Origin: Fibrobacter sp.
GTDB taxonomy: Bacteria; Fibrobacterota; Fibrobacteria; Fibrobacterales; Fibrobacteraceae
NCBI RefSeq assembly: GCF_017545445.1
Contig: NZ_JAFWOM010000140.1
Location: 1-64,000 of the forward strand
Direction of reading: 5' to 3'
Length of the DNA: 64,000 bases
Of this stretch, positions 604 through 31,290 are shown piece by piece. Under the pieces are notes generated by a model that was not told the DNA's origin, did no database searches, and was given only the letters and a program-made list of their open reading frames with translations. The position numbers and the translations under genes were made by a program. Positions within the stretch are counted from its first letter, which is position 1; every line of letters starts with the position of its first letter.

Positions 604-932
604 TTACGCGACAAATTTAGAAACTTTTGCGTAAGGCGAGTGAAACGGGACTGTTTACAGGCCCACTTTTGAGCCTAGCAAAAGACACTCGAAGAGTGTC
701 AAAGGCGAGTGCTGCGGCAAAAGTGTGCAAGGTGAGAATGCGCAAAAACTTGTTTTTGCATTTGCGAGCCGTAGCCACTGACGTCGAAGACTTCAAAACA
801 ACTTGTTGTTTTGACATTGCCGAGCCGTACTAAATGCGTGCAAATTGAGTGCCGCAGGCAATGTTTACATTGCCTATGGCCGAGATGCAGCCGCATGGCA
901 TCGTAGATGCCAAAAGCGCTCCGAAGGAGCGC
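604..932 (-). repeat. Array of unlike hairpins in the gpmI leader
   Basis: The gene-free stretch 586-1067 is mostly filled by perfect or near-perfect inverted repeats. They are 604-634 (long loop), 647-664 (one mismatch), 684-700, 742-759, 793-814, 856-875, 896-912 and 916-932. Most have 2-4 nt loops and every stem sequence is different. Several are followed within 4-7 nt by CGAG, at 637-640, 706-709, 765-768, 821-824 and 881-884, giving a period near 60 bp. On the minus (gpmI) strand the stems at 684-700 and 916-932 are followed by TTTT and look like terminators. No convincing protein is encoded here. Confidence 0.8.
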
Positions 933-939
933 CAATATA
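932..939 (-). promoter_or_regulatory. Possible -10 box for gpmI
   Basis: The minus strand reads TATATTGG directly before the hairpin at 916-932. It resembles the TATATTTG boxes found before the que operon, cmk and the tRNA in this window. No clear -35 is visible. If used, the gpmI transcript would begin with the hairpin array as a leader of about 340 nt. Confidence 0.4.
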
Positions 940-31160: not shown

Positions 31161-31290
31161 AAAGCCTTATTTTTGACTTCATTCTCTCGTCTTTGTACTT
31201 TCGCTTCGCTCAAGTACCAAATGCTAGCCTCAACCATGCCCAAGCAAGCTTGGTCGCGGTATTCGGCTTTACGCATTTGTCGTCTTTTTC

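Follow-up and report, generated by a model that had tools for sequence, protein, structure and literature searches.

The hairpin array at positions 604-932 of the window, the 64,000 nucleotides of Fibrobacter DNA analysed here, is composed of three copies of a dispersed element and of one copy that is split by another. Taken as a whole, these observations are probably best explained if the array is pieced together from units of a dispersed and non-autonomous Fibrobacteraceae element that forms hairpins, which a trans-acting enzyme reads by its shape as a hairpin of single-stranded DNA and which resides at gpmI as a passenger.

Composition of the array and architecture of the element

The array contains six perfect hairpins (stem of at least 7 bp, loop of 2-3 nt), with stems of 7-10 bp, and an imperfect seventh; their positions are collected in Table 1. 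Shuffling the region 300 times with dinucleotides preserved gives a mean of 0.14 perfect hairpins and a maximum of 2, which bears out the hairpin cluster described in the sequence-only reading of this DNA, and no other 329-bp stretch of the window is as rich in hairpins. RNA folding of the region yields z = -5.6 for the minus strand and -4.6 for the plus strand. CGAG words recur at 637, 706, 765, 821 and 881, in steps of 69, 59, 56 and 60, and the periodicity that had been proposed is therefore real; however, the words do not simply follow successive stems, as had been thought, but constitute both sides of a tandem G.A motif.

Table 1. Parts of the array, associated promoter-like words and a further copy in the window
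Feature	Position	Strand	Description
Unit 1	621..702	+	covariance model match 632-677, 25.9 bits, E 0.001
Unit 1, P1	624-630 / 678-684	+	CTTTTGC / GCAAAAG
Unit 1, core	632-677	+	tandem G.A, AC/AC loop, GGGaCTG-TTTA-CAGgCCC (imperfect hairpin, 647-664)
Unit 1, second hairpin	684-700	+	GACACTC-GAA-GAGTGTC; perfect hairpin
Type-B unit, 5' half, broken by unit 2	701..722	+	AAAGGCGAGTGCTGCGGCAAAA; intact type-B units at L003 1409-1476 and L163
Unit 2 (type A)	723..794	+	model match 32.8 bits, E 1.3e-5
Unit 2, P1 and core	core 728-772	+	P1 GTG.GC/GC.CAC
Unit 2, P4	742-759	+	GCAAAAAC-TT-GTTTTTGC; perfect hairpin
Unit 2, second hairpin	780-794	+	GACGTCGAAGACTTC; imperfect
Type-B unit, 3' half	795..836	+	AAAACAACTTGTTGTTTTGACATTGCCGAGCCGTACTAAAT, with most of the perfect hairpin 793-814; intact counterparts GCGGCAAAACAACTTGTTGTTTTGACATTGCCGAGCC (L239) and GCGACAAAACAACTAGTTGTTTTGGCATTGCCGAGCC (L039)
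Unit 3	835..912	+	model match 48.5 bits, E 6.6e-10; core 841-888
Unit 3, P4	856-875	+	AGGCAATGT-TT-ACATTGCCT; perfect hairpin
Unit 3, second hairpin	896-912	+	TGGCATC-GTA-GATGCCA; perfect hairpin
Type-B unit, second hairpin	916..932	+	GCGCTCC-GAA-GGAGCGC; perfect 7-bp stem, GNA loop; follows type-B units elsewhere
Likely gpmI -7 box	612..619	-	TAAATTTG (TAnnTTTG type), downstream of the array; from alignment across Fibrobacter gpmI loci
Second -7-like word	932..939	-	TATATTGG, on the distal edge of the array; weak promoter candidate; from the sequence
Further copy in the window	31225..31270	-	model match 49.9 bits; Pfam

Units of the element measure ~70-100 bp and form a long imperfect hairpin, in the array on the strand antisense to gpmI, whose core can be written P1-nnAA-GGC·GA·G-n-NNN-GC-[P4, CTTG loop]-AT-N'N'N'-C·GA·GCC-P1'. 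The outer stem, P1, comprises 5-8 bp of any sequence and is followed by a small A-rich loop, whilst P2 is usually GGC/GCC and is also found as GAT/ATC, GTC/GAC or GCC/GGC. The tandem G.A formed by the two CGAG words, which is probably of the sheared type, is kept in 98-99 of 100 copies, and the bulged base is T, A or C, with a single G in 100 copies. P3 consists of three pairs in 25 combinations (triples including GTC, GCC, GAA, GCA and GTA) and P4, with 96 different arms in 100 copies, is closed by CTTG, CTCG or TTTA. The core is often followed, 8-9 bases on, by a second hairpin whose loop is C(GNA)G. The fixed features are the tandem G·A, a GC/AT mismatch pair and the bulged base, the conserved positions are CGAG/CGAG, GC/AT and the AA before P2, and all stems covary; shared flanks with exchanged stems, as first described for the array, hold as a rule throughout the family. 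In another class of copies (L057, L068, L076, L018 and the window copy at 31225), the second hairpin is GGACTT-GA-GCGAAGC-GA-AAGTCC, which again contains tandem G.A together with a GCGAAGC mini-hairpin and is often flanked by AGACGA words.

Distribution, genomic context and the gpmI locus

The element family is dispersed and, among the genomes searched, limited to the Fibrobacteraceae. Besides the array itself, 12 sites of its own genome match the sequence of 604-932, as do sites in 14 of the 18 congeneric genomes compared, whereas the 12 genomes from outside the genus gave no match. With a covariance model, the element is detected in all 49 Fibrobacter genomes and, within the sister genera of the Fibrobacteraceae, in 10 of the 17 genomes; among the genomes listed outside this family, no copy was detected. 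Copies per Fibrobacter genome, counted as lower bounds, range from at least 10 to at least 130, and 800 kb of the genome G004, taken regardless of matches, contains 36 copies, corresponding to about 160 per genome; density was assessed from this stretch, from pieces of G000, some of them chosen for holding matches, and from the lower-bound genome scans. Searches of the open literature brought to light no account of such repeats in Fibrobacter. With this element, an entire bacterial family gains a family of dispersed repeats.

Copies are located in tandem, divergent and convergent intergenic space and in both orientations, with no preference relative to genes (16 same and 20 opposite in tandem space; 10 and 10 in convergent space), as judged by simple codon-usage gene calling in which single assignments may be wrong. 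In-frame copies are found within truB, an SNF2-type helicase gene and a glycosyltransferase gene, in the uvrB linker of G001, and in a PHP-like gene (our reading, with no Pfam match). Pfam places glycosyltransferase domains on both sides of the in-gene copy and splits TruB_N around the truB insert, which in G004 amounts to ~46 residues in frame and is missing in the closest homologue, that of G013 (98% identical downstream). All five in-gene insertions found here lie on the strand of the gene. Stop codons were rejected as the cause of this, as frames are commonly open both ways (86 plus and 91 minus of 100).

The same TruB loop (L207 and orthologues; G004:C1:238888-239940) hosts several unrelated dispersed repeats, all in frame, whose peptides, e.g. 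CHCERSEAI, ANCTLAWPRSSADECSL and HPGAEGDRIQ, differ between relatives. Dispersed repeats, GGTGAGCCTGTCGAACCATCG and TCTCGTC, are also present at 2274-2650 of the window, in the region coding for the C-terminal linker of UvrB, and Fibrobacter intergenic regions (the window and pieces of G000) are rich in other short dispersed words (CTACTTCCTACT, ACTAACCACTAACC, TCTCGTCTCTCGTC and GTCATCCTGAGC..GGATCCAG).

The element is present at 8 of 50 Fibrobacter gpmI loci, invariably right behind a conserved box, TAnnTTTR, that is ~30-60 nt away from the start codon; almost every gpmI locus of Fibrobacter has this box in an aligned form, TAAATTTA, TATCTTTG or TAAATTTG. Across 527 upstream regions from G000 and G004, the motif TAnnTTTR, which resembles the Bacteroidetes -7 element, TAnnTTTG, is overrepresented at 10-50 nt ahead of start codons, which suggests that Fibrobacter has a -7 promoter element similar to that of the Bacteroidetes. 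In the window, the likely -7 box is situated between the array and the gpmI start, and the array would therefore stand upstream of the likely promoter rather than in the gpmI leader, where the sequence-only reading placed it.

That reading also took the array for a set of leader attenuators or terminators controlling gpmI, as TTTT follows two of the stems on the gpmI strand (684-700 and 916-932 in reverse) and the minus strand folds strongly. Such control is highly improbable. An attenuator lies between promoter and start codon and is conserved with its gene, whereas here the likely -7 box is downstream of the whole array and 42 of the 50 gpmI loci are without any copy; the structured strand is the antisense one, and copies also occur at unrelated genes, including in convergent intergenic regions and coding sequence.

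Unit 1 occurs alone at gpmI of G015 and upstream of prfA. At gpmI of G009 a type-B unit separates the TAAATTTAG box from AAGATAGAAAAAAGGCTCCCC, and RUG14497 has AAAGATAGAAAAAAGGCTCCCC and no insert; this comparison suggests that a -7-like box is either carried in or duplicated by the type-B unit, which ends in CAATTTAG / CAAGATAG / CATATAG. The order of units at gpmI is unit 1, type B broken by unit 2, then unit 3 in the window, and 2-3-1 in G001. In these close genomes, the arrays (window 604-932 and G001:C4:730-1054) look as if rotated via a circle or unequal exchange.

Covariation, folded strand and mobility

The structure of the element covaries. A pairing-blind pattern, GAGnNNNGC...ATNNNCGAG, in which only GAG..GC and AT..CGAG are fixed, gave 34 matches in the ~750 kb searched; the three NNN bases are all paired in 22 of these, compared with 7 when the arms are re-dealt, and scrambled versions of the motif gave 0-1 matches. 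The covariance model (R1) was built from 21 copies picked partly for pairing, and the statistics of these seeds are biased accordingly: both-sided changes occur at 14 of 16 pairs, 91% of cells are paired (62% when shuffled) and double-sided changes number 98 (28 when shuffled). More weight is therefore given to the two stems outside the model. A P1 of 6 bp or more is formed by 43% of copies, a share that drops to 3% with re-dealt arms, and the second hairpin is present in 64 of 100 copies, with 52 distinct stems and a GNA loop in 35. Paired changes are already evident where no more than two to five differences separate two copies: GGC/GCC to GCC/GGC is the sole difference between two copies, and in unit 3 a C-G pair is changed to T-A between the window and the same locus of G001. 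The earlier suggestion that the stem is kept rather than the sequence is thus upheld. Although such covariation is unusually strong and clean for bacterial interspersed repeats, it is by itself no proof of a functional RNA or of a riboswitch-like leader.

Folding as single-stranded DNA is more likely than folding as RNA, because G·U pairs are scarce and because of the GNA loops. G.U contributes 27 of 1437 element pairs (1.9%), whilst tRNAs from these genomes have 29 of 387 (7.5%; p = 3e-7, Fisher test). On the plus strand G.T is found 27 times and A.C 6 times, and this is therefore the folding strand; thermodynamic DNA folding of pieces of the window clearly favoured neither strand. The excess of G.T would also fit a structured RNA family, whose copies are transcribed and act as small RNAs or as hairpins for mRNA stability or processing, with the structure selected copy by copy. 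The strong covariation and fixed internal-loop motif resemble those of such a family, the commonest P4 loop is G(CTTG)C, CTTG being also a stable RNA tetraloop and hence compatible with DNA or RNA, and selection at the RNA level could also explain why all five in-gene insertions lie on the gene's strand. An RNA family is nevertheless unlikely, as orientation and position relative to genes are not fixed, the frequency of G.U pairs is a quarter of that in the tRNAs, only a tRNA reaches the gathering score in an Rfam search of the window, with no match to the element, and the loop of the second hairpin is a C(GNA)G triloop, a type whose stability in DNA is exceptional (PMC4686876).

Nested insertions, empty sites and near-identical copies point to mobility of the element. 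The L003 array holds one intact type-B unit and another with a type-A unit inserted at CAAAA, with AAAA on both sides; likewise, unit 2 of the window lies inside a type-B unit and is bordered by AAAA at 719-722 and 795-798, as most type-A copies are bordered by AAAA. Whilst AAAA borders type-A units, AGACGA borders some others, and each may be an element end or a target repeat rather than a genuine duplication of the target site. Many orthologous sites have no copy; to the further window copy at 31225-31270, for example, empty sites correspond in the alignments with G001 and G013 (L186 and L189). In the 800 kb of G004, one subfamily is represented by eight near-identical copies whose flanks are unrelated.

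It has also to be considered that the copies are old, immobile repeats kept as host DNA sites (for nucleoid, gyrase or replication), spread by recombination and kept paired through template switching between arms. The rotated unit order of the window and G001 would accord with this, as would the paired changes, including a lone G-C to C-G flip between two copies, which suggest that both arms change together. Template switching would erase mismatches, yet the tandem G.A persists in 98-99 of 100 copies, and the eight near-identical copies of G004, their flanks being unrelated, suggest that the element spread recently, so that this origin is rather improbable.

None of the candidate partners tracks the occurrence of the element. 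The Y1 transposase (PF01797) is found neither in G000 nor in 13 of the 18 element-carrying relatives of the same genus, the Y2 transposase and reverse transcriptase (RVT_1) are absent from most or all element-carrying genomes of the genus, and the integron integrase (TIGR02249) never exceeds its cut-off in 13 genus genomes, its weaker matches resembling an XerC/D-type background that is also seen in 14 of 14 controls; Y1, Y2, integron integrase and reverse transcriptase were each rejected as mobilising partner. Single-strand transposition often shows a bias between leading and lagging strands; the copies show none (20:16).

In the preferred reading, that of a mobile hairpin element, a trans-acting enzyme, not identified among the candidates searched, would recognise the shape of the folded single DNA strand, and the letters of the stems would therefore be free provided that they pair. 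Intergenic sites that are AT-rich or repetitive would take up new units, those of type A at AAAA and those of type B next to -7 promoter boxes. Upstream of gpmI they would be passengers that may alter the upstream side of the promoter, rather than a leader attenuator. More tentatively, and with somewhat less than even confidence, the element could represent a new class of mobile element, in which the enzyme recognises single-stranded DNA by its folded shape (tandem G.A, GC/AT and bulge at fixed positions), with stem sequence almost free, and in which at least 100 copies per genome diversify with strict Watson-Crick arms and land in frame within host genes and beside promoters. The element makes three questions accessible to testing: which enzyme reads a structure with free letters, whether DNA hairpins are subject to compensatory change, and by what route short palindromes come to lie in frame within coding genes.

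Relationship to known systems

Integron attC sites are sequence-variable palindromes recognised via irregularities of the folded strand (PMC3053210), and the Fibrobacter element is likewise a sequence-variable palindrome with such irregularities. However, its conserved positions contain no GTTRRRY/RYYYAAC boxes, its P3 triple varies freely, and it has neither gene cassettes nor, in 13 genus genomes, an integron integrase above cut-off. MITEs such as Correia/NEMIS are small, non-autonomous and intergenic, and lie near or carry promoter-like boxes (PMC10969869). The Fibrobacter element shares its small size, intergenic location and promoter-like boxes with these, but its outer inverted repeat, P1, varies in sequence, leaving no constant terminal inverted repeat, and no autonomous transposon partner sharing terminal inverted repeats was found.

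REP/BIME sequences fold as single-stranded DNA in a strand-specific manner and have a conserved stem mismatch (PMC8266576). The Fibrobacter copies resemble them as short, high-copy, intergenic imperfect palindromes, often arranged as mosaics, with a conserved mismatch in the stem. In contrast to the REP/RAYT system, there is no GTAG foot at the conserved positions, the stem letters are almost free and the Y1-family TnpA-REP gene is absent from the window's genome and most relatives. Rickettsia palindromic elements (RPE) are palindromic repeats inserted in frame within conserved genes (PMC10969869), and the in-frame copies in truB, SNF2-type helicase, glycosyltransferase and uvrB genes liken the Fibrobacter element to these by behaviour; its copies, however, are mostly intergenic and have a fixed tandem G.A core with covarying stems. 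As defining features of REP/RAYT and attC are lacking, the element is filed as a dispersed palindromic element outside the named families. By analogy, it appears to work most like REP/BIME and, inside genes, to behave like RPE.
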